Source: a bacterium
GTDB lineage: Bacteria; Hydrothermota; DG-26; JAUXAN01
Direction: 5' to 3'
Length of the DNA stretch: 39,752 nucleotides
NCBI GenBank assembly: GCA_030619885.1
Contig: JAUXAN010000023.1
Span: 1 to 39,752, forward strand
Shown: piece after piece, positions 14,551 to 36,616 of the stretch
Layout: every line of letters begins with the position of its first letter
Numbering within the stretch: position 1 is the first letter of the stretch
Notes under the pieces: model-generated
What the model was told of the DNA's origin: nothing
The model's database searches: none
Seen by the model: only the letters and a program-made list of their open reading frames with translations
Position numbers and translations under genes: made by a program

Positions 14551-14590
14551 AATAGAACGCAGATCTACACAGATAACCGCAGATTTATTT
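14551..14590. repeat. degenerate CGCAGAT island
   Basis: Units AACGCAGATCTA, CACAGATAAC and CGCAGATTTA directly upstream of the histidine kinase start. The same family recurs at 14725-14732 and 14804-14815, on both sides of the palindromic element. Confidence 0.55.
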
Positions 14591-14595
14591 TCAAA

Positions 14596-14623
14596 GTAGG
14601 GAACAGGCATGTCTGTTCCCTAC
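14596..14623. repeat. palindrome GTAGGGAACAG/CTGTTCCCTAC, copy 1
   Basis: Perfect 11-bp arms (14596-14606 and 14613-14623) around GCATGT. It sits 13 nt downstream of where the GxxExxY-like frame breaks off. A second, slightly diverged copy is at 35141-35168. Confidence 0.8.
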
Positions 14624-14636
14624 GATTTCTATTTGA

Positions 14637-14711
14637 TAAGAATCCACATCCAAGTGTATTATAGACTTGGTAAAAAGCCTTGATAATTTTCTCAGTTATA
14701 TCTTCATATTT
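14637..14711 (-). pseudogene. remnant of a GxxExxY (PDDEXK_3-like) protein gene
   Basis: About 25 codons match the N-terminus of GxxExxY proteins (YEDITEKIIKAFYQVYNTLGCGFL). The reading frame then departs from the family where GFLESVYE would be expected, and no nuclease core follows. The full family length is about 120-130 aa. The remnant lies between the 70-bp palindromic element on its 5' side and the GTAGGGAACAG palindrome on its 3' side; the palindrome even supplies the ATG of the open frame (ATGAACCCCG at 14807). Confidence 0.6.
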
Positions 14712-14733
14712 AAAATCCTGAAAATCTGCGTTC

Positions 14734-14803
14734 ACCCCGTTAGAAAGGAGGAAACCAAATGAATTATTTCCTTTCACCTTATAAACAAATTTTCTAACGG
14801 GGT
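14734..14803 (-). repeat. palindromic CCCCGTTAGAAA element, copy B
   Basis: Perfect 13-bp arms ACCCCGTTAGAAA (14734-14746) and TTTCTAACGGGGT (14791-14803) around 44 nt. The outer flanks are CTGCG and CTGCG, as if it had inserted into a CGCAGAT island. The inner sequence carries a GGAGG-type stretch but no gene. Confidence 0.8.
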
Positions 14804-14866
14804 TCATCTGCGTCCCTATTTTTAAAATGACTTGCGTATCACTTTTTTGCCATTTTTATTTAATTT

Positions 14867-19300: not shown

Positions 19301-20963
19301 CTATAGATATAGCCGCTTCATGCCCTTGTCCAACAGCTTCAACAACTGATGCAGGTCCTTTCACTGCATCACCACCTGCAAAAAATCCATTTGCATCAGT
19401 AGCAAGAGTTACTGGATCACACGCAATAGTTCCATATCTGGTAATATTTACTCCAGTCTCTTCAAGGAATGAAAAATCAGAGACCTGGCCAATAGCTATG
19501 ATCACTGTATCACACTCAATAGAAGTTTTTATATTTTCATCAACTTTAGGACTAAATCTACCTTCTGAATCAAAAACAGAGGTGCATTTAATGAGGTCTA
19601 ACCTCCTAATTTTACCATCCTCACCCACGATTCTTTTCGGACCCCATGAGGGATGAAGTTTTACCCTCTCTTCAACTGCTGCCTCAATTTCCCACTCATG
19701 TGCTGGCATCTCTCTTCTTGACTCAAGACATGTAAGATGAACTTCAGATGCTCCAAGTCTTAGAGAGCACCTTGCTACATCAATGGCTACATTTCCACCG
19801 CCAATAATTGCTATCTTTTTGCCTATTTTTACTTCTTCGCCAGTATTTACACTTTTCAAAAACTCGAGCCCGAGGAAGACCCCAAGAAGGTCGGTACCTC
19901 CTATTCTAAGAGCTTTTCCCTTTTGGGCACCAACAGCTAAAAAGAATGCTTTATAGCCTTCCTTTTCGAGTTTCTCAAAGTCCTTTTTGGAAGTAATGGG
20001 GGTATTAGTTTTAAGTTCAACTCCATTTTTTAGGACCTCATTAATCTCCCATTCTATTTGATCTCTTGGTAACCTGTAAGGGGGGATACCCATCCTCATC
20101 ATCCCACCAGGTTTTTCTGTAGCTTCAAATATTGTCACAGGATAGCCAAGATTAGTTAGGAAATATGCACAAGCTAAGCCAGAAGGACCAGCTCCTATAA
20201 TAGCAATTTTTTCTTCTTTCTTCTCAATATTTTTCGGTTCCTCGGCTTGAAGTTCTTCTTTGTGAGTAAACACATAGTCTAAAATAAATCTCTTCAAGTT
20301 CATAATAGCTATAGGCTCATCGTATTCTCCTCTCTTGCACTTGTCTTCACAAGGATGATGGCAAACCCTCCCACAAATTGCTGGAAAAGGAAGATTTTCT
20401 CTTATCAAATTGTAAGCTTCCTTATATTTTTTCTCTCTAATAAGAGCAATATAGCCTTGAGCGTGCGTACCTGCGGGGCAGGTCTCCTGACATTGGGGCC
20501 TTGATTTTTTATCTATAGCAAAAGCATTGGGATAAGCCTGAGGATAGAGCCTAAAGACTGCTTTTCGGTCCACAAGAGATTCATCAAATTCAGATACTAC
20601 ATGTACTGGACAAGCTTTTTCACATTCCCCACAACCAGTGCATTTATCAATGTCAATAAATCTTGGGCGTTTGAATATTTTTACTTTAAAATCTCCAGCT
20701 TTTCCAGTAACTTCTTCTATCTCAGAGGAGGGTAAGAATTCAATATTTAAATGTCTCCCAAACTCCACAAGTTTAGGTGATATAATGCACATTGCACAAT
20801 CGTTGGTTGGGAATGTTTTATCAAGCTGAGACATGATACCACCAATAGCAGGAGAATCCTCAACAAGAAAAACTTTAAATCCTGAGTTTGCTAAATCCAG
20901 TGAAGACTGGATCCCTGCGATTCCTCCACCAACTACTAAAACAGCACCAGTCTTATTTTTCAT
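16371..20963 (-). CDS. hdrA: HdrA-d: giant HdrA with embedded GltD/NfnB-like flavodomain
   Basis: A 1530-aa flavin/iron-sulfur protein. Domain order: HdrA FAD module 1 (VLVVGGGIAGIQSSLDLA; CAMCIISPKLVE), ferredoxin motif CTGCGECEKACP (108-119), a complete GltD/NfnB-like insertion (about 150-600), the rest of module 1, HdrA module 2 (LVIGGGLAGMEAALSIA, about 1065), and two C-terminal [4Fe-4S] motifs (from Cys1456 and Cys1489). The insertion has CPAGTHAQGYI, CGRVCHHPCEDKC, an FAD loop IAIIGAGPSGLACA and a NAD(P)H loop IAIIGGGNVAIDVARCSLRLGA. So it could feed electrons directly from NAD(P)H. Three micro-repeat islands interrupt module 2 in frame. No Shine-Dalgarno is obvious at the ATG. HdrL-type large HdrA proteins of sulfate reducers are the nearest analogues I know. 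Confidence 0.92.
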   Translation of the reverse strand: MKNKTGAVLVVGGGIAGIQSSLDLANSGFKVFLVEDSPAIGGIMSQLDKTFPTNDCAMCIISPKLVEFGRHLNIEFLPSSEIEEVTGKAGDFKVKIFKRPRFIDIDKCTGCGECEKACPVHVVSEFDESLVDRKAVFRLYPQAYPNAFAIDKKSRPQCQETCPAGTHAQGYIALIREKKYKEAYNLIRENLPFPAICGRVCHHPCEDKCKRGEYDEPIAIMNLKRFILDYVFTHKEELQAEEPKNIEKKEEKIAIIGAGPSGLACAYFLTNLGYPVTIFEATEKPGGMMRMGIPPYRLPRDQIEWEINEVLKNGVELKTNTPITSKKDFEKLEKEGYKAFFLAVGAQKGKALRIGGTDLLGVFLGLEFLKSVNTGEEVKIGKKIAIIGGGNVAIDVARCSLRLGASEVHLTCLESRREMPAHEWEIEAAVEERVKLHPSWGPKRIVGEDGKIRRLDLIKCTSVFDSEGRFSPKVDENIKTSIECDTVIIAIGQVSDFSFLEETGVNITRYGTIACDPVTLATDANGFFAGGDAVKGPASVVEAVGQGHEAAISIDRFLRGDDIKEGRGESTEELPSREISKFIEKKERQIMPVLPVEERIKDFKEIDLGFTEEMALEEVDRCLECGLCSECLECERVCDADAVLHSMTGEHLEINVGSIILALGADKFNPSIKHEYGYGKHRNVITSIQFERILAASGPYQGHVQRPSDGKLPKRIAWIQCVGSRDEDSNNLYCSSVCCMYALKETIITKEHAKDIEPTIFFMDIRAHGKDFDKYYEKAKQDYGVRFIRSRVGKIEEAEESGNVLVYYTKEDGKQLSEEFDLVVLSVGFKPSEGIQALSDKFGVRLNAHNFFKTARFLPIETTRDGIFICGTSSSPKDIPETVMQASGSAASAAELLSDVRGTEIVEKTYPPERDLSGESPRIGVFVCHCGINIGRVVDVPSIVEYAKTLPGVTYAEDNLFTCSQDTQQKMKQVIEEHNLNRVVVASCSPRTHEPLFQETLKESGLNPRLFEMANIRDQCSWVHMNEPKKATEKAKYLVRMAVSKSRLLEPLPIVELDVIQKGLVIGGGLAGMEAALSIAEQGFEVSIVEREKELGGNLKSLYYTIQGGDVQEYLHSLIEKVENHPKVKVYKEASIENIEGYIGNYKTRIVGAPVDKSSSAPEDQSTGAQEHRSNEIEHGIIVVTTGAEELKQKEYLYGEDERVITQFELEKRLSIVEDRLSEKPAKRKANKAKTDYRLPKTVVMIQCVGSRDDEHPYCSRVCCQEAIKNALKLKELNPKVDIYILYRDVRTYGFLEEYYQKARDNGITFIRYEEEEKPVVETSTSEHRSTGAQEHKSNGLRVKVKDPILGSYLVIEPDLIVLAPAIVPRADAPDISQMLKVPLNEDKFFLEAHVKLRPVDFSTEGVFLAGLAHSPKTIDETISQSKAAAARAGTIISKDKYEAEAITASVNENVCSGCGMCVSVCPYDAPQVVEKEGKRLSQINKAMCKGCGNCASACPSGAMQQLGFKSEQTLVMIDAGLESIKAGVG
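16941..17003. repeat. in-frame GGAGCACAGGAGCAC island in HdrA-d (island C)
   Basis: Four tandem CTCCTGTG units (coding strand CACAGGAG) encode STSEHRSTGAQEHKSNG at residues about 1323-1340, between a conserved strand and LRVKVKDPILG. Confidence 0.75.
17244..17327. repeat. in-frame CGGTAATCGG island in HdrA-d (island B)
   Basis: Encodes residues about 1213-1240, between the conserved FELEKRL and KTVVMIQCVGSRD. It consists of CGGTAATCGGTAATCGG-like words and their CCGATAACCGAT complements. HdrA-c carries a different island at the same position. Confidence 0.75.
17436..17510. repeat. in-frame GGTGCTCCTGTGCTCC island in HdrA-d (island A)
   Basis: Encodes residues about 1152-1176 between GNYKTR and IEHGIIVVTTGA. 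The units are CTCCGGTG, CTCCTGTG, CTCCAGTG, CTCTGGTC. They end in an inverted version (GGAGCACTGGAGGAC), so it is partly palindromic. Confidence 0.75.
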
Positions 20964-20965
20964 AC

Positions 20966-21060
20966 TTATTCAATGCAAAATTATCAATTAGCAATTATCA
21001 TCTCAAAATAAGTTTACATTACTAATTGTCCATTGTTAATTGCTAATTTTAAATTGTTTA
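20966..21060. repeat. AATTAGCAATTATC micro-repeat spacer
   Basis: ATCAATTAGCAATTATC and CTAATTGTCCATTG followed by TTAATTGCTAATTTT are imperfect tandem and inverted words filling the spacer between HdrC and HdrA-d. A related word forms the 3' end of the FlxB-like gene. Confidence 0.55.
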
Positions 21061-21519
21061 TTTTAATCTTCTATTTACCATAGATTTTATCCGATTACAC
21101 TGCCTTTTAGTAGGCTTCAAGAGATATTTTACCATATTGCATCTCAAATCCTGGGTAAATTTGTCCAATTCCTCTATTTCCGAAAGTCTCTCTTTCAGGA
21201 TATATCCTTCTTTTACTGCCATTTCACGCAGAATTTCCATCACATCGGCAAATTTCACATTCTGTGGACACCTGGCATAACAGGTATAACATCTTTGGCA
21301 CATCCATATAATATCCGACGAAAGAACCTCTTTGCGCATCCCAAGTACTGCCATTCTGATAATCTTTCTTGGGTCGTAATCTTCATTAACTTCTGCTACA
21401 GGACAGGATGCTGTGCAGGTCCCACAGGCGAAACATCTTTTAAAATTTTCTGCCCCAGGCTGTGATGCGATTTCATATTTAAATTTTGAGTCAAGATCTG
21501 AAAGCTTAATCTCTTCCAT
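21058..21519 (-). CDS. hdrC: HdrC-like [4Fe-4S] subunit
   Basis: Soluble 153-aa ferredoxin-like subunit of heterodisulfide-reductase complexes. Two complete [4Fe-4S] motifs are present: CFACGTCTASCP and CQRCYTCYARCP. YDPRKIIRMAVLGM and MREMAVKEGY-type helices lie between and after them, as in HdrC. The ATG at 21519 is supported by GGAGG six bases upstream; a TTG four codons earlier overlaps that Shine-Dalgarno and is unlikely. HdrC normally partners HdrB, but no CCG-domain protein is encoded anywhere in this window, so its terminal acceptor is unclear. It lies between the FlxA-like gene and HdrA-d. Confidence 0.92.
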   Translation of the reverse strand: MEEIKLSDLDSKFKYEIASQPGAENFKRCFACGTCTASCPVAEVNEDYDPRKIIRMAVLGMRKEVLSSDIIWMCQRCYTCYARCPQNVKFADVMEILREMAVKEGYILKERLSEIEELDKFTQDLRCNMVKYLLKPTKRQCNRIKSMVNRRLK

Positions 21520-21544
21520 TATTTCCTCCAATAAGTTGAGAGAC

Positions 21545-21603
21545 TAAGAAATTTAAATGTCCCGATTTTCCTAATTTCCATTTTCTCATTTTCCATATTT
21601 TCG
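21545..21603. repeat. TTTCCTAATTTCCATTTTC micro-repeat spacer
   Basis: GATTTTCCTAATTTCCATTT and TCTCATTTTCCATATTTTCG, an imperfect TTTCCAT array between FlxA-like and HdrC genes; the same words occur at 5575-5600. Confidence 0.5.
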
Positions 21604-22431
21604 TCATTCCTCCATCGGCAACTTCTGCAGTTCTGCATATGAAAATACGGGTCCATCCACACATACATATTTTGGACCAATATTACACCTTCCACATTTC
21701 CCAACTCCGCACTTCATTCTCCGCTCAAGTGAGGTATAAATCCTCTCAGGTGGAAATTCAAGTTCCGAAAGCACAGGCAGTGTATATTTTATCATAATAG
21801 GCGGACCACAGACTACAACCCAAGCATTTTGGGGTGATGGAGCTACTTCCTTCGTCACCGTTGGCACAAAACCTACTCTCTTATTCCAGCCAGAAACTGC
21901 CTCATCAATTGTTAGATGTAGTTTTAGATCATCTCTTTTTTCCCACTGAGCTAATTCATTCTGATAAAGGAGTAATCCCGGTCTCCGTGCACCATATATG
22001 ACTGTAATATCTTTAAAATCTTGCCTCTTTGCTAAGAGATAGACTGTAAGTGCTCTCAGTGTAGTAAACGCAAATCCTCCTCCAATGATAACAACATTAC
22101 ATCCCTTGAATTTCTCTACTGGATAACTGTTTCCAAGAGGTCCTCTAAGTCCAATTGGTTCCCCTTCTTCAAGCCAATGAATGGCAGTAGTAACAACGCC
22201 CACTCTATTAACAGTGAACTTTAAAAATTCTTTCTCGGTTGGTGAAGAGGCGATACCAAAAGGCGCTTCGCCTTTGCCCAGGATAGAGAGTTGACAGAAC
22301 TGTCCTGGCAGAAATTCAAATCTTTCTTCTTCATTACAAAAAACCAGATCATAGGTCCTGAGGGTCTTATCATCCGATTCCACTGTTATCTTCTTTGCCT
22401 TCACCGGAACTGGTATATATGGATTCTCCAT
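21604..22431 (-). CDS. FlxA/HydG-like FAD- and NAD(P)-binding reductase subunit
   Basis: Ferredoxin-NADP-reductase-fold protein related to sulfhydrogenase gamma subunits and FlxA of Flx-Hdr complexes. It would oxidise or reduce NAD(P)H and exchange electrons with the neighbouring iron-sulfur subunits. An FAD domain (about 1-100; FLPGQFCQLSI, FGIASSP) is followed by the nucleotide-binding domain (NVVIIGGGFAFTTLRAL, VVVCGPPIM). The C-terminus has a [2Fe-2S] motif, CGVGKCGRCNIGPKYVC (about residues 241-257). At 275 aa it is complete. No hydrogenase large or small subunit is nearby, so this fits NAD(P)H-driven (Flx-type) rather than H2-driven input. Confidence 0.9.
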   Translation of the reverse strand: MENPYIPVPVKAKKITVESDDKTLRTYDLVFCNEEERFEFLPGQFCQLSILGKGEAPFGIASSPTEKEFLKFTVNRVGVVTTAIHWLEEGEPIGLRGPLGNSYPVEKFKGCNVVIIGGGFAFTTLRALTVYLLAKRQDFKDITVIYGARRPGLLLYQNELAQWEKRDDLKLHLTIDEAVSGWNKRVGFVPTVTKEVAPSPQNAWVVVCGPPIMIKYTLPVLSELEFPPERIYTSLERRMKCGVGKCGRCNIGPKYVCVDGPVFSYAELQKLPMEE

Positions 22432-22534
22432 AACTAATTCAGGTTAAAATTAGCACTGTCTTTGGTAGAGCATTTACAAGTTTGATGATTCGTACTGCAA
22501 AATCAAGCAAACGCTCTGCCAAATTATCTCCTCT

Positions 22535-22582
22535 TTTTCTCATTTTTCATTGCTAATTGTTAATTTTACATTTTTAATTGTG
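22535..22582. repeat. AT-rich micro-repeat at the 3' end of the FlxB-like gene
   Basis: TTTCTCATTTTTCATTGCTA and ATTGTTAATTTTACATTTTT overlap the last codons (KLTISNEK) and the stop of the FlxB-like gene. The gene's C-terminus seems to be written by the island. Confidence 0.45.
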
Positions 22583-23628
22583 TTTATAACTTCTCTTATG
22601 TCCATATTTACAGGACAGCTTCTTATACATCTCCCACAACCAACGCACCCGAAATCTCCAAGATTTTCCACAAAGTAATTAAATTTGTGCATTATGCGCT
22701 GCCTCATCCTTTCTTTTGAACTCGGTCTTGGGTTATGTCCGGATGCCTCTTTTGTAAACAGTGAAAACATACAAGAGTCCCATACCCGAATACGCTTACC
22801 TCGGGCATTTCCTGCTCTTTCGTCTTGAATATCAAAGCAATAGCAGGTAGGACACAAATAACTACAAGCTGCGCAAGAGAGACACTTATAAGCAATCTCA
22901 TTCCATACAGGGTTATCCCATAGAGTATCTAAACCTTCTTTTAAAGAAGTAATATCAACCGGTTCACTCAATGTTGATTCGGCTTCCTTCCTGACAGTCG
23001 ATGCTCTTTTTATATCAACTTTTGCAGCCTTTTGTATGGGCAACCCTTTGGTTTTTATAAATTCTTCTCCATTCTGACTGCAGGGTTCAACAAGAAAATC
23101 TTCACCAATATCTGTGAGCAAGAGATCTGAGCCTTCTTTGGTGAATGGCCCACCGTTTAACCAATTACAAAAACATGTGGACAACGGGTAATTGCAGCCA
23201 ATAGTGAATATCAATGCATTGGTGCGTCTATTTATCCAGTAAGCATCCTTATATCCAGAACATTTCGCAACATTGCGCTCCATACCAAAAAGTCTGTCGA
23301 GGAGAGAAAAACTCTTTACATCACAGGGGCTTGCACCAAAAATGGCTATTTTATCGGTGTTCGGTGTTCGGTATTTGGTGTTCGGTTGCTCTGGAGGAGA
23401 TATTTTCCCTTCTTTATAAGTAAATAGGGTCTCGGTCTGAGGGAAGAATATCTCTTTAGGTGGTCTATCTGTATTATGAGAGTTGATAGTTGGAAGGTGG
23501 GAGTCGGAAGTTACTTCCTTAAAAGAACTTACTCCATCTGACTCAACAGGGATAAATACTCTATATTCTTTTGTCAGACTATCAATAAGTTCCTTTAAAC
23601 GTTTCTTTTTTATCTTGAAAGCAGCCAT
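22540..23628 (-). CDS. FlxB/HydB-like [4Fe-4S] electron-transfer subunit
   Basis: Iron-sulfur protein resembling sulfhydrogenase beta subunits (Fer4_22 type) and FlxB. The N-terminal half has IAIFGASPCDVKSFSLLDR, the P-C-D motif shared with FrhB/HydB proteins, and FTIGCNYPLSTCFC. The C-terminal half has two [4Fe-4S] motifs, CLSCAACSYLCPTCYC and CVGCGRCIRSCP, separated by RVWDSCMFSLFTKEASGHNPRP-like family sequence. It would pass electrons from the FlxA-like flavoprotein onwards. An in-frame CGGTGTTCGG island (encoding PNTKYRTPNTD) is inserted just before the conserved KIAIFGASPCD strand. At 362 aa it is near family length. Confidence 0.9.
   Translation of the reverse strand: MAAFKIKKKRLKELIDSLTKEYRVFIPVESDGVSSFKEVTSDSHLPTINSHNTDRPPKEIFFPQTETLFTYKEGKISPPEQPNTKYRTPNTDKIAIFGASPCDVKSFSLLDRLFGMERNVAKCSGYKDAYWINRRTNALIFTIGCNYPLSTCFCNWLNGGPFTKEGSDLLLTDIGEDFLVEPCSQNGEEFIKTKGLPIQKAAKVDIKRASTVRKEAESTLSEPVDITSLKEGLDTLWDNPVWNEIAYKCLSCAACSYLCPTCYCFDIQDERAGNARGKRIRVWDSCMFSLFTKEASGHNPRPSSKERMRQRIMHKFNYFVENLGDFGCVGCGRCIRSCPVNMDIREVINTIKNVKLTISNEK
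23354..23390. repeat. in-frame CGGTGTTCGG island in the FlxB-like gene
   Basis: TCGGTG, TTCGGTG, TTCGGTA, TTTGGTG, TTCGGTT units encode PNTKYRTPNTDK on the minus strand, immediately before a conserved Rossmann-like strand. Confidence 0.75.
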
Positions 23629-23666
23629 AGTTACAGTTCTACTTTTTTTAAATTAACACTCTCATT

Positions 23667-24671
23667 TTACATAATAAATTCTTCTTTATCGTCTTCATTA
23701 AAAGTCGCCATAGGTGGTGTAGCGTCTAAACTCAGACCTGCTGTATATCCAAATCTTTCTTTTATCTCTTTCTCAATTTTAATTCCAAGCGGTGCAAGGT
23801 CTACGTGAGTGGGACATGCCCTTATGCAAGCACCACATCCTACACATCTGCCCGCAGTATCTAACATCCGGGTTATGTGAAAAGTAAATGTGTCGGAAAA
23901 TTCGGTACTCTTCCCAAACCACTGAGGATTTGTCCGATCAACAACGCATTCTTCACAATAACAGAGGGGGCACGCATTCCTACATGCATAACATCTTATA
24001 CATTTGCTTATTTCATGCTCAAAATACTCCCATCTTTCACCAAAACTCAAGTTTTCAAGTTCGGTCATCGGTTCTTGCTTTTCGGTTTTTGCACCCGAAA
24101 CAGGTTCTCCAATAAAGCTATCATAGACAGAAGGGTCAGGATTGAGGCAGGTCTTACAGCTATCACAAAGAATATCGGATAGCTTCAATGCCTTTTTGAA
24201 ATCCTTCCCCTCAAACAGGACTTCGTCATCCTGGGGATTGTAGTTCAAAATCTCTTTGCCATTAAGTCTATCAGACACTTTCTTTAAATCGAGGATTCCA
24301 GTGCAAGCAATGCCAATCACTGTAATGTCTTCTTTTTTAACTTGTTTCTCCAGGATAAGTTGAACAATTGACCTCGCATCACATGCTTTTGCAATTATTC
24401 CTATCTTACAACGGTTCTCCATACGGACCGTAGGGTCGGTGTTCGGTTTTCGGTGTTCGGCACATTTTGACTTTTGTAGATATGTAGCTAAATTATTGCT
24501 ACAGGTAAGATCGAAGATTAAACTGTCCACATCTTTTTCCTCTCTGATAAAACAGGGTGTTGAGCGTAATGGGAGAGGACTCTTACTGTATCCGATAATA
24601 AGGTCTACCTTCTTCTCGGTTAAGAGTTTTCTCGCACACTCTTTTAATTCATTCTCTAATGATCGCATCAT
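23667..24671 (-). CDS. FlxC-like / FrhB-related [4Fe-4S] subunit
   Basis: Iron-sulfur protein with an N-terminal FrhB/HydB-related domain (IGIIAKACDARSIVQLI), a mid-region cysteine set (ILCDSCKTCLNPDP), and two C-terminal [4Fe-4S] motifs (CIRCYACRNACPLCYCEECV and CVGCGACIRACP). At 334 aa it fits the FlxC position between FlxB- and MvhD-like genes of Flx-Hdr clusters. Its start overlaps the stop of MvhD-2 (ATGATG around 24666-24671), so translation is coupled. An in-frame repeat insertion (residues about 71-86, encoding CAEHRKPNTDPTVRMENR) lies immediately before the conserved CKIGIIAKACDAR block. Confidence 0.85.
   Translation of the reverse strand: MMRSLENELKECARKLLTEKKVDLIIGYSKSPLPLRSTPCFIREEKDVDSLIFDLTCSNNLATYLQKSKCAEHRKPNTDPTVRMENRCKIGIIAKACDARSIVQLILEKQVKKEDITVIGIACTGILDLKKVSDRLNGKEILNYNPQDDEVLFEGKDFKKALKLSDILCDSCKTCLNPDPSVYDSFIGEPVSGAKTEKQEPMTELENLSFGERWEYFEHEISKCIRCYACRNACPLCYCEECVVDRTNPQWFGKSTEFSDTFTFHITRMLDTAGRCVGCGACIRACPTHVDLAPLGIKIEKEIKERFGYTAGLSLDATPPMATFNEDDKEEFIM
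24412..24463. repeat. in-frame island with 29-bp ATACGGACCGTAGGG element in the FlxC-like gene
   Basis: The element 24412-24440 (core ATACGGACCGTAGGGTCGG) matches 26331-26359 in HdrA-c at 28 of 29 positions, and both are read in the same frame (TDPTVRMENR). It is followed by TGTTCGGTTTTCGGTGTTCG repeats. Confidence 0.85.
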
Positions 24672-25117
24672 ACCCTTTTTACAAATCTCTTTGCTGGGCC
24701 AAGTTTTTTCACATCATCGGTGACTTTTTTTACAACCTGTGCAAATTTTTCTCCTTCACCAGCGGATACCCATGAGAATTGTACTCGACCTGGCTCAATT
24801 CCTATAAACTCTAATAATGTCTTTAAAATGGCAAACTTTCTTCGAGCATAGTAATTTCCTGAGATATAGTGGCAGTCTCCTGGATAACATCCAGAGACAA
24901 GTACCCCATCGAATCCATTCTGCAAACACTTCAATACAAAAATTGGGTTTATCCTGCCAGAACAGGGCACCCTTATAACTCGAATATTGGGCGGGTACTG
25001 GATTCTCGAGACCCCAGCTAAATCAGCACCAGCGTATGAACACCAGTTACATAAGAATGCAATTATTTTAGGTTGCCAGTTTCGGTGTTCGGTATTCGGT
25101 TTTCGGTGTTCGCTCAT
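24668..25117 (-). CDS. mvhD: MvhD/FlpD-type iron-sulfur subunit (MvhD-2, FlxD-like)
   Basis: MvhD-family [2Fe-2S]-type electron carrier, in the FlxD position of an Flx-Hdr set. The family core is intact: FLCNWCSYAGADLAGVSR, VPCSGRINP, SGCYPGDCHY, and VQFSWVSAGEGEKFA. The start at 25117 overlaps the stop of the four-helix-bundle gene (ATGA). The first 13 residues (MSEHRKPNTEHRN) are encoded by a CGGTGTTCGG island and are absent from the other two MvhD proteins here. The native start may therefore have been replaced. It is the most divergent of the three paralogs. Confidence 0.92.
   Translation of the reverse strand: MSEHRKPNTEHRNWQPKIIAFLCNWCSYAGADLAGVSRIQYPPNIRVIRVPCSGRINPIFVLKCLQNGFDGVLVSGCYPGDCHYISGNYYARRKFAILKTLLEFIGIEPGRVQFSWVSAGEGEKFAQVVKKVTDDVKKLGPAKRFVKRV
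25079..25113. repeat. CGGTGTTCGG island, right side of the four-helix-bundle gene
   Basis: TTTCGGTG, TTCGGTA, TTCGGTT, TTCGGTG, TTCG units overlap the start of MvhD-2 and the region just past the four-helix-bundle gene. Confidence 0.75.
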
Positions 25118-25473
25118 TTTTTTAATGCCTTAATCAAATTTCTAATCATTCTTGAGATATGATTTACCTCATCTAAAATAATATTAGATTCTTCTTCACT
25201 AATATATTTCATCTCTTTGGCTATAATTAACTGAGTATCAAGTTCAGCTCCAGAACCTAAAGCAATATATAAAAATTGAACAAATTCATTAGTATGCCCT
25301 CTCATTTTTCCCTCTGCTATATTGGACGGGATAGATACGGCCGCCCTTCGCATCTGACTAACAAGCCCATATATCTCGTCTTTAGGAAAGCCTTTTGTGA
25401 CAATATAGATTTTCTTAACCAACTCTATACTTTTCTTCCAAACTTCTAAATCTCTATAACTTCTTATTATCAT
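25114..25473 (-). CDS. four-helix-bundle protein (S23/IVP family)
   Basis: A 119-aa protein of the four-helix-bundle family (TIGR02436, first known from 23S rRNA intervening sequences). Diagnostic segments are RSYRDLEVWKKSIELVKKIY, QMRRAAVSIPSNIAEG and FLYIALGSGAELDTQL. The ATG at 25473 is supported by GGGGAGG seven bases upstream; the longer frame runs into the repeat island. Function is unknown for the family. It interrupts an otherwise purely electron-transfer operon between HdrA-c and MvhD-2 and has CGGTNWTCGG islands on both sides, which suggests it arrived as a unit. All three genes remain coupled. Confidence 0.9.
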   Translation of the reverse strand: MIIRSYRDLEVWKKSIELVKKIYIVTKGFPKDEIYGLVSQMRRAAVSIPSNIAEGKMRGHTNEFVQFLYIALGSGAELDTQLIIAKEMKYISEEESNIILDEVNHISRMIRNLIKALKK

Positions 25474-25485
25474 TTTTATCCTCCC

Positions 25486-25523
25486 CGACAACCGATTACC
25501 GATAACCGATAACCGAGTTAACC
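25486..25523. repeat. CCGATAACCGATAACCG island, left side of the four-helix-bundle gene
   Basis: CAACCGATTACCGATAACCG followed by ATAACCGAGTTAACCG. It encodes the last codons of HdrA-c (SVIGYR) and supplies its stop codon. Confidence 0.75.
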
Positions 25524-28500
25524 GCCTCAAATATCTGTTCATTAGTAAATCCTCTCAAATCTATGGCACCGCATCTACACGATGCAGAACAGGCACCACA
25601 ACCTTTGCACATCGCCTCATTTATCTCAGCTATTCCTTTCTCTTCATTGATTTCTATTGCAGAATAGGCACATATTTCCACACATACACCGCATCCTGTA
25701 CACCTATCAGGATTAACCGAGCATATCGTACCTTCTGCTAATATGGTTTTCTTGCTCAAGATAGTTAGCGCTCTTGCCGCCGCAGCTTCAGCCTGAACTA
25801 TGGACTCCTCTATGTACTTGGGTCCATGGGCGAGACCACATACAAAGATTCCATCTGTTGCAAAATCTACAGGCCTAAGTTTTACATGAGCTTCTAAGAA
25901 GAAACCGTCCTCATTCAGTGGCACCTTGAGTAATTTTGCCAAATCTTCATTTTCCTGAGGAGCATCTATTGAAACCGAAAGAACTAAGAGGTCCGATTCA
26001 AGCACTACTTGTCTGCCCAATATAGGATCTACAGTTTTTATTTTCAACTTGCTATCAGGATTTTCTTTATCAATAATCTCAACTCGTGGCTTGTGGTCCA
26101 AATCATATCTCATAAATACAACCCCATCATCCCGGGCCTGTGCATAATACTTTTCAGTTAATCCATAGGTCCTTATATCTCTATATAATATGTAAATGTC
26201 CGCGTTTGGATAAATTTCTTTCAGTTTCAGTGAGTTCTTCACTGCTTCACCACAACAAACTCGACTGCAGTAAAGTCTCCCCTCTTCTCGAGAATCCACA
26301 CATTGGATCATTACAACGGTTTTCGGTGGTCGGTTTTCCATACGGACCGTAGGGTCGGTTTTCGACCCACCGCTCACCGATGATAGTCTTTTTTCCAGCT
26401 CAAGTTGTGTAATTACTCTCTTGCTTTTTCCATACAGGTATTCCTCCGTCTTATATTCTTTCGCTCCTGTAGCCACAATCACAATCCCATTCTCTATTTC
26501 GGTTGTCGGTTTGCGGTTTGCGGTTTTCGACGGCCGATCACCGCTTACCGATGATAACCTCGTTTTGTAGTTTCCAATATATCCTGTAATATCTTCAATT
26601 TTAGCATCTGTGTAGACTGTAATGAGTTTATTCTTTTCTACCTTTTTAATGGTCTCTTGTAGCAATTTTTGAGGATCACTACCGTCTAAGGTATAATAAA
26701 TATCTCTCAAGTTTCCTCCAAGTTCAGATTCTTTCTCTATAAGTGCGACCTCATAACCTGCCCGAGCTATAGCCAATGCTGCTTTCATTCCAGAAAGTCC
26801 GCCACCAATTACAAATGCCTTGGGATTAATGTCTACTGGCAGTCTTCCTAAAGGGGTGAGATTTCTCGCCTTTGCCACTCCCATTTGCACTAAATCTTTT
26901 GCCTTCTCTGTAGCAAGTTCTGGCTCATTCATATGAGCCCAACTACATTGGTCCCTGATATTCGCCATCTCAAAAAGATACTGATTGAGCCCTACTTCCC
27001 TTAAAGTCTCTCGAAACAAGGGTTCATGGGTCCTTGGTGTACAGGCTGCAACCAGAATACGGTTGAGGTTATGTTCTTTAATTTTTTCCTTTATTGTATT
27101 TAAATAATCTTGAGAACATGCATATAAGAGATTTTCAGCATATTCAACATTTGGCAGGTTCTTGGTAAATTCAACCACTTTTGGAACATCCACAACACCA
27201 GCAATATTTATCCCACAATGGCAGATAAATGCACCGATTCTTGGTCTATCGCCTATTACATCCCGTTCAGGAGGAAACTCCTTCTTAGACACCCGCTCCT
27301 GTCGCTTGAGTGCCAAGAAGTTTGTGCATTCAGCAACAGCACCAGATGCTGACATTACTGATTCCGGAATATCCTTGGGGCCACTCATAGCTCCTGCCAC
27401 AAATATTCCGTCCCTCGTTGTATTAAGTGGAGTAAAAAGGTCTGTTCTAGCAAATCCAAATTCATCGAGTTTTATATCAAGCCTATCTGAAAACTCTTCC
27501 ATTCTCTTTCGGGGTTCTAATCCAACAGATAAAATAGCCATATCAAAATTTTCTTCCTTTGTCTTCCCATTCTCCTGTGCAAAACGCAGTCTTAACCTAC
27601 CTCCATCCAATTCACTAATCTTGGCCACCTTAGATCTCACAAATCTAACACCAAATTGAGACTGAGCCCTTTCATAGTATCTATCAAAATCTTTGCCAAA
27701 AGCTCTTATATCCATAAAGAATATGGTCGGTTTAAGCCCTTTTATGTGCTCTTTTGCAATAATTGCCTCTTTGATGGCGTACATACAACAAACTGAAGAA
27801 CAATAATCATTTCTATTTTCTACATCCCTTGAACCCACACATTGAATAAATGCAACCCGCTTAGGTGATTTCCCATCCGAAGGACACACGACATGCCCTC
27901 TTTGTGGTCCACTTGCTGAAAGCATGCGTTCAAATTCAATAGAAGTTACTACATTCTTAAATCTCTTGTATCCATACTGAGCATGCACAATGGGGTCGTA
28001 TGGATCAATTCCCGATGCCAGGATGACAGCACCACAATTCAACGTGACAACTCTATCTTTATCCTCAAAGTTTATAGCCTCTGCTGAACATGCCTTTTCA
28101 CATAACCTGCAAGCCCCTTTAGTAAGATATAGACAGTGGTTTTTATCGATGAGGTAATTTGATGGGATGCTTTGGAGAAAGTAGCGATATATTGATTTCC
28201 GAGTTCTAAGCCCCATGTCAAACTCGTCTACTATCTTTACAGGACATTTCTCCTCGCAAAGCCTGCACCCAACACACTTTTCAGGGTCTACATACTTTGC
28301 ATGTTCAGTTATCTTGCACAAAAAGTTACCCGGTTCACCAGATACAGATGTGAGTGATGAATAGGTATGGAGTGTGATACCTGGATGTCTTGCGCATTCG
28401 CTCATCTTTGGAGCCAGAATGCATATAGAACAGTCATTGGTAGGGAAAGTCTTATCTAATTGGGGCATTCTCCCACCTATTGATGGAGTCTCCTCAACAA

Positions 28501-28600
28501 GGTGGACATCCGCTCCTAATTCAGCCAAATCCAATGATGCCTGAATCCCTGCTATCCCTGCCCCAACTACAAGAACTTTATCTTTCTTATACTTACCCAT
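25496..28600 (-). CDS. hdrA: HdrA-c: two-module HdrA flavoprotein
   Basis: A 1034-aa HdrA with two fused modules. Module 1: VLVVGAGIAGIQASLDLA, CSICILAPKMSECARHP, ferredoxin CVGCRLCEEKCP (109-119), a second cysteine group (156-171), and the CCMYA region. A linker domain starts at about 455 (IGAFICHCGINIAGVVDV). Module 2: AFVIGGGLSGMKAALAIA (about 595). Two C-terminal [4Fe-4S] motifs follow (CTGCGVCVEIC, CKGCGACSASC). HdrA carries the flavin used for electron bifurcation in Hdr complexes. Two in-frame islands lie at residues 681-701 and 740-758, and the C-terminal codons and stop are also island sequence. It sits between FrhB-like and MvhD-2/Flx genes and probably forms the HdrA of the Flx set. 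Confidence 0.95.
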   Translation of the reverse strand: MGKYKKDKVLVVGAGIAGIQASLDLAELGADVHLVEETPSIGGRMPQLDKTFPTNDCSICILAPKMSECARHPGITLHTYSSLTSVSGEPGNFLCKITEHAKYVDPEKCVGCRLCEEKCPVKIVDEFDMGLRTRKSIYRYFLQSIPSNYLIDKNHCLYLTKGACRLCEKACSAEAINFEDKDRVVTLNCGAVILASGIDPYDPIVHAQYGYKRFKNVVTSIEFERMLSASGPQRGHVVCPSDGKSPKRVAFIQCVGSRDVENRNDYCSSVCCMYAIKEAIIAKEHIKGLKPTIFFMDIRAFGKDFDRYYERAQSQFGVRFVRSKVAKISELDGGRLRLRFAQENGKTKEENFDMAILSVGLEPRKRMEEFSDRLDIKLDEFGFARTDLFTPLNTTRDGIFVAGAMSGPKDIPESVMSASGAVAECTNFLALKRQERVSKKEFPPERDVIGDRPRIGAFICHCGINIAGVVDVPKVVEFTKNLPNVEYAENLLYACSQDYLNTIKEKIKEHNLNRILVAACTPRTHEPLFRETLREVGLNQYLFEMANIRDQCSWAHMNEPELATEKAKDLVQMGVAKARNLTPLGRLPVDINPKAFVIGGGLSGMKAALAIARAGYEVALIEKESELGGNLRDIYYTLDGSDPQKLLQETIKKVEKNKLITVYTDAKIEDITGYIGNYKTRLSSVSGDRPSKTANRKPTTEIENGIVIVATGAKEYKTEEYLYGKSKRVITQLELEKRLSSVSGGSKTDPTVRMENRPPKTVVMIQCVDSREEGRLYCSRVCCGEAVKNSLKLKEIYPNADIYILYRDIRTYGLTEKYYAQARDDGVVFMRYDLDHKPRVEIIDKENPDSKLKIKTVDPILGRQVVLESDLLVLSVSIDAPQENEDLAKLLKVPLNEDGFFLEAHVKLRPVDFATDGIFVCGLAHGPKYIEESIVQAEAAAARALTILSKKTILAEGTICSVNPDRCTGCGVCVEICAYSAIEINEEKGIAEINEAMCKGCGACSASCRCGAIDLRGFTNEQIFEAVNSVIGYR
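26327..26383. repeat. in-frame island B in HdrA-c with the 29-bp element
   Basis: Encodes residues 740-758 (SSVSGGSKTDPTVRMENRP) between the conserved LELEKRL and KTVVMIQCV. It contains the element 26331-26359 also found in the FlxC-like gene. Confidence 0.8.
26498..26560. repeat. in-frame CGGTTTGCGG island A in HdrA-c
   Basis: Encodes residues 681-701 (LSSVSGDRPSKTANRKPTT) between GNYKTR and IENGIVIVATGA, the same loop that holds island A in HdrA-d but with unrelated repeat units. Confidence 0.75.
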
Positions 28601-28622
28601 ACCTAATTGTTCACTGATAATT

Positions 28623-29744
28623 TCAGTCTTCCACTTCGGTAAGTTCTTCTGTTTCGAATGTGGTGAGAGGGATGGCTTCTTCTACATCCTTCCCTGGCAG
28701 ATAATCGAATACTTTCTGGACAGATTCTCCTACTTTTAGAAAAATTGTCGAGAGCGGTATATCAGCAGGACATACATCGCTACATAAGCCACATCCTACA
28801 CAGGAGATACCTACGTGGGTTAACCTGCCAATATGATAGAAGACCGTGTTGGGAGGAACTCGGATCCCTCCCCGTTTTTCAATTTCTGTTTCGTATGTAG
28901 AAGGTTCCCATTCGTAATCCCTAGAGTCGAAAGTACACAAGTTACAATAGCAGATAGGGCAGATATTACTGCATCCGTGGCAACCGATGCATCTTCCAAA
29001 AGTCTTTATCAAACCATCCATGCCGAACTTTTCGATTTGACTCTCGGCAAAAAGTCTTTTCTTTTCTTCTATCCTTTTATTCCGAAACAGTTTTAAAGCC
29101 TCATTTTCTATCTCTTCTTCTATAAATTCGCCCTTTGCACCATCAGCAAATTTCTCTCCCTTATCTGTGTTCAACGATATCTTGCACTCCGTATCAATTG
29201 CTTTGTTTCCAAGTAGAAGAACAGTCATATCTGCACTGTAGGGTAGGAAATGTTCACAAGCCTTACAGGTAGGTCTTACATCCGCCATCTGATTCTCTGG
29301 ATTCTTCACCCCGTCCCAGTATTTAGACCAGAGTTCAGAGTCGGTGGAAAGATCTCCATTGACGGATTTTTCCAATGAATAGACCCCACCGCAACTTGAT
29401 GATATGAATAAAAAGTTTTCTAAACTTCCCTGCTCTCGTTTCACCAGTTCTACAAATGCCCTCAATTCACAGGGTCTCACAACTGCGGCAATTGGTCCTT
29501 TCAATGACCCTGTCAGTGTAAGATGCGAAAGCAACTTGCCAGCATTTGCAGGCATGAAAGGGAAAAATGGTAAAATAGCTTCAACCATATTAGGATTGGT
29601 AATGAGTGAATATGCCACAGCACCATTTTCGTTTATTTTCTTAAGGGCAAAAACCCCCTTTACCTTTTTGTTTTCTAAAAAAGATCTGAGTAGTTCTCGA
29701 ACCCCTTCGTGAACATTCTTATCTATTTTCAATACCTTGGACAT
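28623..29744 (-). CDS. FrhB/FdhB-like iron-sulfur flavoprotein subunit (copy 2)
   Basis: Protein of 373 aa related to coenzyme-F420 hydrogenase/formate dehydrogenase beta subunits and HydB. The N-terminal domain has the conserved IAAVVRPCELRAFVEL, then a cysteine group (PTCKACEHF). The C-terminal half has CIGCHGCSNICPICYCNLC and CVGCGLCSDVCP, enough for two [4Fe-4S] clusters. AGGTATG start context with GGGAG upstream is acceptable. It is a paralog of the preceding gene (same VEEAIPLTTFETEELTEVED-like ending) and lies 22 nt upstream of HdrA-c. The electron donor (F420, formate or another) cannot be deduced; no formate dehydrogenase catalytic subunit is present. Confidence 0.85.
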   Translation of the reverse strand: MSKVLKIDKNVHEGVRELLRSFLENKKVKGVFALKKINENGAVAYSLITNPNMVEAILPFFPFMPANAGKLLSHLTLTGSLKGPIAAVVRPCELRAFVELVKREQGSLENFLFISSSCGGVYSLEKSVNGDLSTDSELWSKYWDGVKNPENQMADVRPTCKACEHFLPYSADMTVLLLGNKAIDTECKISLNTDKGEKFADGAKGEFIEEEIENEALKLFRNKRIEEKKRLFAESQIEKFGMDGLIKTFGRCIGCHGCSNICPICYCNLCTFDSRDYEWEPSTYETEIEKRGGIRVPPNTVFYHIGRLTHVGISCVGCGLCSDVCPADIPLSTIFLKVGESVQKVFDYLPGKDVEEAIPLTTFETEELTEVED

Positions 29745-29771
29745 ACCTTTCTCCCTTGCTCATTCTTAATT

Positions 29772-30887
29772 TTAATCCTCTACCTCCTTGAGCTCCTCTT
29801 CTTTATATGTTGCCATGGGAACCGGCTCGTCTGTCTTTCTACCCGGGATATAGTCGAATAATTTTTGGGTCTCATCAGCTACCAGACCAAAGATTTGGGA
29901 TACAGGAATTTTCAGAGGACAGGCATCTTCGCAACTTCCACAGGATACACAAGAAAGGCTCATATGTGCCATCCGCCCTAAATGAAAAAGCAAGGTATCA
30001 GGAAGGAATCTGAGACCTCCGCTCATTTCCGCTCTAAAGAGATAATCTTCATAGGGATGTTTCAGTTTATCCGAATCAAAATAGCATTGTCGACAATAAC
30101 AAACAGGACAGACCCGCATACAGTTATGGCAGTTTATACATTTGCTAAAAGTATCAAGCAACCTGTCCAGCCCAACAACCCCGGGTTTCAACTCCTCTTG
30201 AAGATTTTTTCTCTTATTCTTCCTCTCTTCTGTAATTTCTTTCACTTTATCTTTCCAGCTACCTATCTCCTTTTTTGGCGAGATATCGAGCTCTTTTAAG
30301 ATGGCCTCCCCTTTTGGGCTGTTAGATATAATGAAGATATCCCTTTCTCCTGCTTCCAACATTCCAATGTGTATATCCGAAGCTCCCGTTGGCATGCTAA
30401 ATCTATGGCATACCTGACAAATCGGTCTCACAGACCCATTTCCCCATTGTTTAAAGACCTTTTCGAATGCATCTCCACCCTTCTTTGGGTTTTCAAGGTA
30501 GTCAGACAACGGCAATACCCCTGGGCAGTCAATACTAATAAGGAACACATTATCCAGCTCTACCTGGCCAAGTTTAGACAGTTCAATTGTTGCACTTATC
30601 TCACACGGTCTCATCACAGTAGCAATCCTCTTTCTCCCCTTTCCACGCCTCATTACACTGGAGATCGCTTTAGCCCCATGGACAGGCATAACCGGTGGCA
30701 ACGGAGATGCATCATCAAGTAATGAGTTATCCTGGGCAAGAACCCATACATAAGAATCTCCTGCAGGAACTTTCACAGGAATTAAAACAGTATCAAAACA
30801 TTTCCTTTCCAACCCCTTCTTTAAGAGATCAAGGATCGCATTTTCTCTCTTTTTCAACCCTGTGGTAGTTGATTTAGGTGCACTCAT
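29772..30887 (-). CDS. FrhB/FdhB-like iron-sulfur flavoprotein subunit (copy 1)
   Basis: Protein of 371 aa, paralogous to the next gene downstream. The shared core includes IATVMRPCEISATIEL, PICQVCHRFSMP, CINCHNCMRVCPVCYCRQC, FHLGRMAHMSLSCVSCGSCEDACPL and the ending VPMATYKEEELKEVED. The final glutamate-rich tail is conserved in both copies, perhaps a docking peptide for an HdrA partner (inference). Its start overlaps the HdrA-b stop by 4 nt (ATGA), so it is translationally coupled to HdrA-b. Confidence 0.85.
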   Translation of the reverse strand: MSAPKSTTTGLKKRENAILDLLKKGLERKCFDTVLIPVKVPAGDSYVWVLAQDNSLLDDASPLPPVMPVHGAKAISSVMRRGKGRKRIATVMRPCEISATIELSKLGQVELDNVFLISIDCPGVLPLSDYLENPKKGGDAFEKVFKQWGNGSVRPICQVCHRFSMPTGASDIHIGMLEAGERDIFIISNSPKGEAILKELDISPKKEIGSWKDKVKEITEERKNKRKNLQEELKPGVVGLDRLLDTFSKCINCHNCMRVCPVCYCRQCYFDSDKLKHPYEDYLFRAEMSGGLRFLPDTLLFHLGRMAHMSLSCVSCGSCEDACPLKIPVSQIFGLVADETQKLFDYIPGRKTDEPVPMATYKEEELKEVED

Positions 30888-32572
30888 CTCAAAGCCTCCA
30901 TAACTTCCTGATAAACTTGCCTAAAGGTAAAATGCTTATGGCTTGCTGCACCAGATGGACAGGCTGCTGAACAATTGCCACATCCTCGACATAGAACCTC
31001 ATTCACTACTGAAATCCTTTTTATCTCATCAAAGACGATGGCACTATAGGGACAGACAGAGATACAGGTCTTGCATCCTATGCAAAACGCATCTGATATT
31101 TCGGATATCTTTACCTCTGGTTCTAACTTCCTGCCAGGGATGAGTGAGGAGAGTATCCTCCCTGCAACTGCCTCTGCTTGAACTATCGAGTCTGGGATGC
31201 TTTTCGGACCCTGTGCACATCCTGCAATGAATACACCTTCCAGTGAGGTAGATACAGGACCAAGTTTCTCATGCTCTTCAGTAAAGAATCCTTCGTCACC
31301 TTGATGAATATTAAGGGTTTCAGCAATCTCAGAGGAATCACCGCTCGACTCAATAGCCGGCGCAAGAATCACCATATCCACATTTCGGTGTTCGGTTTTC
31401 GGCTTTCGGCTTTCGATTTTGTAGTTCACTGACATCTGTCCATTGGACTCGGTAACTTCAATATCTTGGGCACGGATGAAATCAACCCCTTCCTCTTTTG
31501 TCTCCTCATAGAATCTCTGATATGATTTTCCAGGCACACAGAGGTCAGAGTAAAATTGGGATATGTTGACCACGGGAATTTCTGCTTTTAAATATCTGGC
31601 AAACTTGATGGAATAGAGACAACATACCCTTGAACAATACCCCTTCTCTTCTCGCCCCACACAATGGATAATACCAACAGATTTGGGGGGATTACCATTT
31701 TTGAGAAGAATTTTCCCTTTAGTATTCATCCTCTCAAATTCCAATGCGGTATAGACATCACTCAATGTTCCGTATCCATACCTGGAAAGTTTCGTAGGGT
31801 CAAATAGATTTAATCCAGTAGTCACGACAACCGCTCCAACTTTGAATTCATTCTCCTCGGTTTCGGTTTTTTTCTTCACTTTTACAACAAAATTTCCAAA
31901 GAATCCTAAAACCTCCTCAACCTTGGTGTCAGTGAATGCCTCAATGTTTTCATTTTTAAGCACATCCTGGACTTTCTGTTCCAATATGTTGGAAGTCGGT
32001 TCCATTTTGGGAAACAGCTGTTTGAACTCTTTAGCCATGCCGCCGATGGATGATGTCTTCTCAACCAGATAGACCTTTCTATCTTTGGAGGCGAGTAATA
32101 GACTTGCCTCAATCCCTGCGATACCACCTCCGATCACTAATACATCAGGGTTAGATTCTATCTCTTTCTTCTCAAGTGGCGTGTGATAGCGAATTCTGCT
32201 AACAGCTGCTCTTGTATACCTTATCGCCTTTTCAGTGGCTTCTTCTTTATCTTCTACAATCCATGCGCATTGTTCACGGATATTGGCAAGTTGAAATAGG
32301 TAAGGGTTAAGACCGGCTTCTTCACATACATTCATAAATGTAAGTTCATGCAGTTTTGGTGAGCAAGCAGCAATTACTAAATGTGTCAAACCATGTTCTT
32401 CAATATTCTGTTTAAGGAATTTCTTCCCATCCTCAGAACAGAGGAGTTTGTGCCTTTTAGCAACTACTACGCCTTCGAGTCCAGAGACCGCATCGAGTAC
32501 TCTATCAATATGCACATTATCCGCTATATTAGGACCACATTCACATACATATACACCTATCTTCTCTTCCAT
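30884..32572 (-). CDS. hdrA: HdrA-b: HdrA module-2-type flavoprotein
   Basis: A 562-aa HdrA-like protein that corresponds to the second half of HdrA-c. It starts with the linker domain (IGVYVCECGPNIADNVHID; IAACSPKLHELTF; NIREQCAW), then an FAD module (VLVIGGGIAGIEASLLLA, about 144) that lacks the CSxCI cysteine pair, as module 2 of HdrA-c does. Two C-terminal [4Fe-4S] motifs follow (CIGCKTCISVCP, CRGCGNCSAACP). GGAGG precedes the ATG. With HdrA-a it forms a split equivalent of the fused two-module HdrA. One short in-frame CGGTGTTCGG island encodes SRKPKTEHRN before the conserved VDMVILAPAIE. Confidence 0.92.
   Translation of the reverse strand: MEEKIGVYVCECGPNIADNVHIDRVLDAVSGLEGVVVAKRHKLLCSEDGKKFLKQNIEEHGLTHLVIAACSPKLHELTFMNVCEEAGLNPYLFQLANIREQCAWIVEDKEEATEKAIRYTRAAVSRIRYHTPLEKKEIESNPDVLVIGGGIAGIEASLLLASKDRKVYLVEKTSSIGGMAKEFKQLFPKMEPTSNILEQKVQDVLKNENIEAFTDTKVEEVLGFFGNFVVKVKKKTETEENEFKVGAVVVTTGLNLFDPTKLSRYGYGTLSDVYTALEFERMNTKGKILLKNGNPPKSVGIIHCVGREEKGYCSRVCCLYSIKFARYLKAEIPVVNISQFYSDLCVPGKSYQRFYEETKEEGVDFIRAQDIEVTESNGQMSVNYKIESRKPKTEHRNVDMVILAPAIESSGDSSEIAETLNIHQGDEGFFTEEHEKLGPVSTSLEGVFIAGCAQGPKSIPDSIVQAEAVAGRILSSLIPGRKLEPEVKISEISDAFCIGCKTCISVCPYSAIVFDEIKRISVVNEVLCRGCGNCSAACPSGAASHKHFTFRQVYQEVMEALR
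31384..31421. repeat. in-frame CGGTGTTCGG island in HdrA-b
   Basis: TTTCGGTG, TTCGGTTT, TCGGCTT, TCGGCTTTCG units encode ESRKPKTEHRN directly before the VDMVILAPA strand. Confidence 0.7.
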
Positions 32573-36223: not shown

Positions 36224-36616
36224 CTACATTTTTGCTATCTTTTCTATATTTTCTATATAATCTTTTACCTTTTCAATCTCACCCTTTGTTTCTATCGGGT
36301 CTATATATCCCACATAGAATGCCTGTTCGTGCAGATTATAGAGTCGGGCTGAAAATCTGTCAAGTAAAAATTTATCTTTTATGCTTCTATCCTGTTTTCC
36401 CAGTTCTCGAGGTCCAAACCTCCTATCCCTACTGCTTTTGGGTAGAGGAAGTTTCTTTTCAACAAATAAATAGTTTGTTGCTAAAACGACCGCATTCCAT
36501 GCCTTTTCGCAAGCATCCCGCATCAAAACTTTGTTTTCCTCCCTTTCTGCTTTTTCATACTCGGTTTTGGCTTCAGCAAAAAATTCTTTTGCTTCAGATA
36601 AGAAATTATTTTGCAT
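36224..36616 (-). CDS. HEPN-like (PaREP1/DUF5618-type) small helical protein
   Basis: A 130-aa, highly charged, all-helical-looking protein. The N-terminal SEAKEFFAEAKTEYEKAEREE, then RDACEKAWNAVVLATNYLFVEK, resembles HEPN-superfamily proteins (PaREP1- or DUF5618-like). Many of these are toxins or nucleotide-binding partners. The RX4-6H motif of HEPN RNases is not evident with certainty (LYNLHEQAF carries a His). No MNT-type antitoxin partner is adjacent. Its promoter ends 6 nt before the ATG, and it is followed by CAGATT-type repeats upstream. Assignment is tentative. Confidence 0.5.
   Translation of the reverse strand: MQNNFLSEAKEFFAEAKTEYEKAEREENKVLMRDACEKAWNAVVLATNYLFVEKKLPLPKSSRDRRFGPRELGKQDRSIKDKFLLDRFSARLYNLHEQAFYVGYIDPIETKGEIEKVKDYIENIEKIAKM

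Follow-up and report, generated by a model that had tools for sequence, protein, structure and literature searches.

The small gene at 25114-25473 on the minus strand of the window, i.e., of the whole analysed stretch of 39,752 nucleotides, is probably one copy of a mobile single-gene cassette, and its product, a four-helix-bundle (4HB) protein of the S23/IVP family (PF05635), would act on the hairpins of its own cassette. The mobility of such cassettes is well supported by the comparison of present, absent, exchanged and gene-less states in related sequences. With somewhat more reserve, we favour the idea of a new minimal class of elements, in which an Avd-like 4HB ring would propagate heptamer hairpins without any known transposase or reverse transcriptase, in bacteria and in at least one archaeon. 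The cassettes are rated as new in kind because each known kind that was compared fails in a defining feature.

Read on the minus strand, HdrA-c is followed by the 4HB gene and then by MvhD-2. The upstream host gene (25496-28600, minus) encodes a heterodisulfide reductase subunit A-like protein, the downstream one (24668-25117, minus) a protein of the FlpD/MvhD type. The 4HB gene between them encodes 119 amino acids and matches PF05635 with an E value of 1.7e-41 (141 bits, the curated cut-off being 33.8). It is preceded by a GGGGAGG ribosome-binding site, starts with the ATG at 25473 and stops with the TGA at 25114; its last bases and the start ATG of MvhD-2 at 25117 overlap as ATGA, as had been noted in the original prediction. 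The upstream arm, at about 25487-25520, is an array of CGGTTAT/CGGTAAT heptamers, G-rich on the sense strand. Read letter by letter (CTCGGTTATCGGTTATCGGTAATCGG), it spells the last 6 codons and the stop of HdrA-c (...EAVN-SVIGYR-stop), the C-terminus of which is rewritten. The downstream arm, at about 25081-25116, is an array of inverted heptamers (CGAACAC/CGAAAAC/CGAATAC) and rich in C on the sense strand; it (GCGAACACCGAAAACCGAATACCGAACACCGAAAC) encodes residues 1-13 of MvhD-2, MSEHRKPNTEHRN, ahead of the conserved WQPK, and rewrites the N-terminus. That the two islands supply these very ends had also been predicted, and on the letters it is exact. The PF05635 gene is the only gene inside; a Y1/HUH (RAYT) transposase is not found in the element. 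The mirror heptamer arms represent terminal inverted repeats, variable in sequence and length. In the predicted mRNA they pair around the open reading frame, the total energy being moderately better than that of shuffles (z -2.1). Insertions of such cassettes give enzymes of central operons new ends.

A few observations on the surroundings may be added. MvhD-2 is 90-91% identical to genes of G065 and G071, which belong to other classes of the same phylum; judged from sequence, this suggests a transfer of the Hdr operon. MvhD homologues in G001, G007, G012, G018 and G024 contain a single in-frame TGA inside otherwise intact genes, possibly a selenocysteine codon. A gene of the PaREP1/DUF5618 family, named after archaeal repeats, is located at 36224-36616 (minus) of the window.

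The arrangement had been taken for an insertion of island, gene and island that kept the operon translatable. The relatives bear this out. At the HdrA|MvhD junction, G071 provides the empty site that had been proposed as a check: gene and arms are both absent there (GAAGCGGTTAATGCAGTAGAGATATGAAAGAGTGGCAACC). In its congener G065 the downstream arm alone is present, and G059 carries a whole cassette with a partly different upstream heptamer. Finished, complete plasmid sequences of cyanobacteria offer further cases. In Calothrix brevissima a 4HB cassette is situated between an integrase gene and the next gene; the corresponding sequences of Tolypothrix, Aulosira and Nostoc carneum, which are about 90% identical, do without it, and so does that of Anabaena cylindrica at 76%. 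Likewise, Calothrix NIES-4105 (85% identity) lacks the cassette that Nostoc edaphicum carries at nrdB/nrdA. Empty and filled sites differ over a short stretch at the stop/start junction. A target-site duplication was not seen at HdrA|MvhD or at the plasmid sites A and B.

Cassettes are also exchanged. The congeners G036 and G046 carry two cassettes, A and B, at two neighbouring sites in opposite order (A-X-B-Y versus B-X-A-Y); the aligned blocks are 93-97% identical, each cassette kept its own heptamers, and the breakpoints lie inside the arrays. At one site G046 has a 4HB cassette and G036 a hairpin of that heptamer without the gene; at another, the cassette is found in G036, and G046, G041 and G008 have hairpins of other heptamers, likewise gene-less; at a third, three species have three different 4HB cassettes, one of them decayed. 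Exchange and turnover are seen in fragmented metagenome assemblies, where misjoining at repeats is possible. In the finished cyanobacterial plasmids, the cas6|cas4 junction contains different cassettes in two species, a gene-less array of a third heptamer in one and an unrelated REP-like hairpin in one. The tolC|hlyD junction is occupied by a 4HB cassette in the genome under study (G000) and in G041, and by a RAYT-like Y1 transposase cassette with REP-like repeats in G008 (L253). Different kinds of elements thus share landing junctions. Array lengths change quickly, and gene-less hairpin doublets, made of heptamers and not of REP motifs, are dispersed in these genomes.

The genome under study contains 8 PF05635 genes. 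Inspected by eye for islands, as had been proposed, 7 of the 8 are bracketed by arrays with a period of 7 bp or closely related ones. Their heptamers differ by locus: CGGTNWT, GAACTYT, TTTAGCC, GGATGCT, AATCCAA (shared by two leuC|leuD-type loci that are nearly identical) and one of the ATTGNAA/TTTTACA type. The eighth, the bAvd-like copy L016, shows no flanking heptamer arrays. The CGGTNWTCGG islands, which had been proposed as the bracket, accordingly hold at HdrA-c/MvhD-2 but not in general; the rule is a 7-bp period, inverted arms and a heptamer specific for the locus. Neither genes constantly free of islands nor copies without them turned out to be the rule. What the original prediction missed are the mirror-image nature of the arms, the locus-specific heptamer, the gene-less hairpins and the parallel single-gene cassettes with mirror repeats of their own.

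The pattern extends over many phyla. From a species-level genome collection, 80 relatives' loci with up to 10 kb of flanks were taken (Bacteroidota, Planctomycetota, proteobacteria, cyanobacteria, Clostridia, Acidobacteria, candidate-phylum bacteria and a Methanophagales archaeon). Within 60 bp of the gene match, tandem repeats with period 7 cover 0.195 of the sequence; the value falls to 0.088 at 60-120 bp and to 0.004 far away (3-10 kb), an about 45-fold enrichment at the gene. Periods 8 and 9 are slightly raised beside the gene, periods 5, 6, 10, 11 and 12 essentially not. Chance or local composition as the source of the arrays is ruled out by shuffles and by this distance profile. When left flanks are compared with the reverse complements of right flanks, the mean score is 16.9 within a locus and 7.7 between loci; the best of 10000 permutations of the pairing reached 9.1. 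In 61 of 76 loci the own mirror match exceeds the 95th percentile of the cross-locus matches. Among 149 non-redundant 4HB genes, pooled from all sources and many phyla, 109 have significantly matching inverted arms (p<0.01) and 23 direct ones; these sequences support the early suspicion that 4HB genes and islands form an undescribed mobile system. Arm polarity is fixed on the sense strand, G-rich on the 5' side (44:7) and C-rich on the 3' side (46:4). The arms being mirror images, this polarity is the same on both strands, and it therefore characterises the ends rather than the direction of the gene.

Do the arms belong to the site or to the gene? When protein-similar 4HB pairs beside unrelated genes are compared, 48 of 207 have arms in common, with 5.2 expected and a maximum of 15 in 500 permutations. 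From these sequence comparisons, the arms are considered part of the moving unit, accompanying the gene between sites. That they are part of the target site is ruled out by this sharing and by the exchanged cassettes. With the same loose detector and in the same relatives, heptamer arrays on both sides were found at 8 of 18 testable 4HB genes, versus 0 of 24 PF13366 and 0 of 23 Y1 genes, and the period spectrum agrees that the latter two lack heptamer arms. The cassettes are mostly co-directional with their neighbours (upstream 61/75, downstream 68/76); L318 runs opposite to them. Certain junctions are repeatedly occupied, mostly between subunits of one enzyme or complex: leuC|leuD, sdhA|sdhB, guaB|guaA and tolC|hlyD (L012, L013, L014, L075, L082, L096, L112, L115 and L124; gene names were assigned from end sequences).

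The window itself is rich in islands. CGGTNWTCGG occurs 19 times, with 0.10 expected from dinucleotide shuffles. These are 19 of the 74 matches of the genome, of which the window makes up 1.6% (1.2 expected, p about 9e-18). Islands of the genome as a whole were surveyed through patterns of this kind. Two gene-less CGGTNWT islands, each an array with its inverted array, lie in frame in HdrA-c: the one at 26317-26383 adds residues that are absent from the relatives G065 and G071, and that at 26508-26565 likewise adds residues absent from relatives. Further in-frame islands are found at 24421-24460 (CGGTNWT; Hdr-operon gene 23667-24671), 23354-23386 (CGGTNWT; gene 22540-23628), 17242-17328 (CGGTAAT with inverted copies; HdrA gene 16371-20963) and 31384-31416 (CGGTNWT/CGGCTTT; HdrA gene 30884-32572). 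Several Hdr proteins (16371-32572 of the window) thereby carry in-frame heptamer islands, the absence from relatives being a matter of the HdrA-c comparison. They recall the Rickettsia palindromic elements.

On the scale of whole genomes, islands were counted in 99 relatives as AGT every 7 bp, four in a row. Of the 48 genomes with a 4HB gene, 34 contain at least three matches, compared with 6 of the 51 genomes without such a gene (Fisher p 1e-9); at the family level the correlation of islands with 4HB genes is 0.71 (rho, 33 families). The island density in random 20-kb pieces had the same sign with weak power (p 0.03), hence the whole-genome pattern count. Of course, this link is a correlation, and such genomes may merely tolerate mobile DNA better. 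In G056, G019, G040, G050, G035 and G073, 6 to 205 matches occur without a detected PF05635 gene, which may reflect lost genes, incomplete genomes or another driver.

The predicted 4HB monomer has a mean pLDDT of 94 and adopts the four-helix-bundle fold. Its fold matches are Xcc0516 (PDB 2GSC) and BT_0352 (2RLD), whose entries contain five chains each, and further the Avd ring of the diversity-generating retroelement (DGR) of a Bordetella phage and its reverse-transcriptase RNP. By analogy, the protein probably forms an Avd-like pentameric ring. Its match to PF22296 stays below the curated cut-off. Among 143 relatives, 94-100% retain Q40, R43, S47, N51, E54, G55, R58, S74 and E77, and the net charge is usually positive. 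A transposase or nuclease signature was not recognised in the protein, and a tblastn search with it yielded no match in phage records.

How could such a protein move DNA? The complete unit would consist of an array with a 7-bp period, the 4HB/S23 gene and the same array inverted. We infer that an Avd-like ring of five 4HB subunits binds the hairpin that the heptamers of its own cassette form in single-stranded DNA or in RNA, and might help replication or repair enzymes of the host to put a copy elsewhere; the movement itself would take place at the level of DNA. Since both the arms and the gene allow readthrough, landings between co-oriented genes would persist. Hairpins without a gene and single arrays would derive from the full cassette rather than precede it, either through transfer in trans or as remnants of a deletion, much as REPINs are connected with RAYTs. 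In the intervening sequence (IVS) of 23S rRNA, this element would have entered a ribosomal gene.

Among known systems, this IVS with its S23p ORF (Coxiella, Leptospira, Brucella) comes close: the protein family is the same and terminal inverted repeats form a stem around the ORF. In Coxiella burnetii tandem GACAGAT heptamers, variable in number among strains, precede the S23 ORF, and RNase III cuts within a 28-bp terminal stem (PMC4990558). By its published description, the Coxiella IVS fits the cassette class. The IVS is, however, defined by its location in an rRNA gene and its excision from pre-rRNA, whereas the present cassette lies between HdrA-c and MvhD-2, nearly all copies of the class are found in protein operons, and its gene-less hairpins are spread genome-wide. 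The S23-bearing IVS looks like a special case and is arguably the first known member of the class. The closest working analogy is REPIN/RAYT, where a single gene is tied to dispersed, short inverted repeats that form hairpins and to dispersed gene-less doublets (PMC3116915). Both have a gene flanked by hairpin-forming repeats, gene-less doublets and a junction shared among relatives, but the 4HB cassette lacks a Y1/HUH transposase, and its arms are freely varying 7-bp arrays instead of a fixed palindromic motif. With Avd of DGRs and with bAvd the 4HB protein has the fold and probably the pentameric ring in common, yet neither a reverse transcriptase nor a variable-protein target was found. Compared with insertion sequences and MITEs, terminal inverted repeats are present and a target-site duplication is absent at the sites inspected. 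Heptameric repeats as such are well documented: GGGAATC in Xanthomonas, GGGGAYT in Nostoc and TAACTGA in Beggiatoaceae (PMC4692102; PMC4679880). Heptamers are over-represented in many bacteria, their origin is unexplained and slippage has been proposed; in Xanthomonas they form 70-75 convergent pairs (PMC4692102), with the same polarity as the arms described here. X. campestris encodes the 4HB protein of PDB 2GSC. These repeats were reported as being of unknown origin, and a link to 4HB genes was not drawn. The Coxiella IVS aside, no published link between heptamers and 4HB genes outside rRNA was found in the open-access literature, which is weak evidence of absence.

Other explanations have to be weighed. 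The arms could be a device at the RNA level, an RNase III-type processing stem belonging to a resident RNA-binding protein that is spread by ordinary horizontal transfer and recombination. The predicted pairing around the ORF, the cleavage of the Coxiella IVS by RNase III within such a stem (PMC4990558), the prevailing co-direction with the operon and the action of Avd on RNA in the DGR complex agree with this view. It leaves unexplained, however, the gene-less islands in coding sequences, the genome-wide islands tracking the gene, the clean empty sites and the exchanged cassettes; nor do opposing cassettes such as L318 and a whole-element fold with a z of -2.1 only speak for it, and we consider it unlikely. 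Slippage combined with chance, by which heptamer arrays would arise in any intergenic space where 4HB genes merely land or survive, is very improbable by now and largely refuted: it would suit the heptamer excess in many bacteria (PMC4692102) and the fast-changing array lengths, but not the about 45-fold enrichment at the gene, the mirror identity of the arms within a locus, the PF13366 and Y1 genes without such arms in the same genomes, or arms that follow the 4HB gene between sites.

It is distinctly unlikely, too, that another enzyme, e.g., a Y1/RAYT transposase or a reverse transcriptase, carries the cassettes along in trans as passengers and that the 4HB protein is an accessory. Y1 genes are common in these genomes, at tolC|hlyD a RAYT cassette in G008 takes the place of the 4HB cassette of G000 and G041, and the fold is related to an accessory protein of a reverse transcriptase. 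Yet islands follow the 4HB gene even in genomes without any Y1 gene (7/9 with 4HB versus 2/36 without, p 2.6e-5), which rejects Y1 in trans as the sole driver, and in partial rank correlation with islands 4HB is the strongest of three (0.39; PF13366 0.23, Y1 0.15). A reverse transcriptase (RVT_1, PF00078) was not found in the genome under study and occurs in 3 of 100 relatives; a DGR-like, reverse-transcriptase-dependent movement was rejected on these grounds. The mobile cassette that we prefer has its own difficulties. Target-site duplications and a transposase or nuclease signature are missing, close copies within single genomes are rare, about a quarter of the 4HB genes have no clear inverted arms (L320 and L323 have direct arrays, L016 none), at least three pattern matches also occur in 6 of the 51 genomes where a 4HB gene was not detected, and the exchange was read from metagenome assemblies.

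If the mobile cassettes are real, the class would account for much of the prokaryotic heptamer excess, with the 23S intervening sequences as a special case. PF05635 is common, its structure is solved and its function obscure, and the heptamer excess is without an accepted cause; the link makes both testable. It would make the old puzzle of the 23S intervening sequences part of a broader class, and it hints at a protein that confers mobility without known transposition chemistry.

A parallel is seen in the single-gene cassettes of PF13366/GxxExxY (PDDEXK_3), where a nuclease-like gene is bordered by mirror arrays of about 9-bp units (e.g., CACAGAGAA types; L260, L262, L263, L267, L269, L281 and L284 in relatives). 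If the 4HB cassettes are what we think, a sister class would be formed by these GxxExxY (PDDEXK) genes and their 9-bp mirror arrays. A match to PF13366 over a short stretch at 14565-14807 (minus) of the window is a truncated copy.
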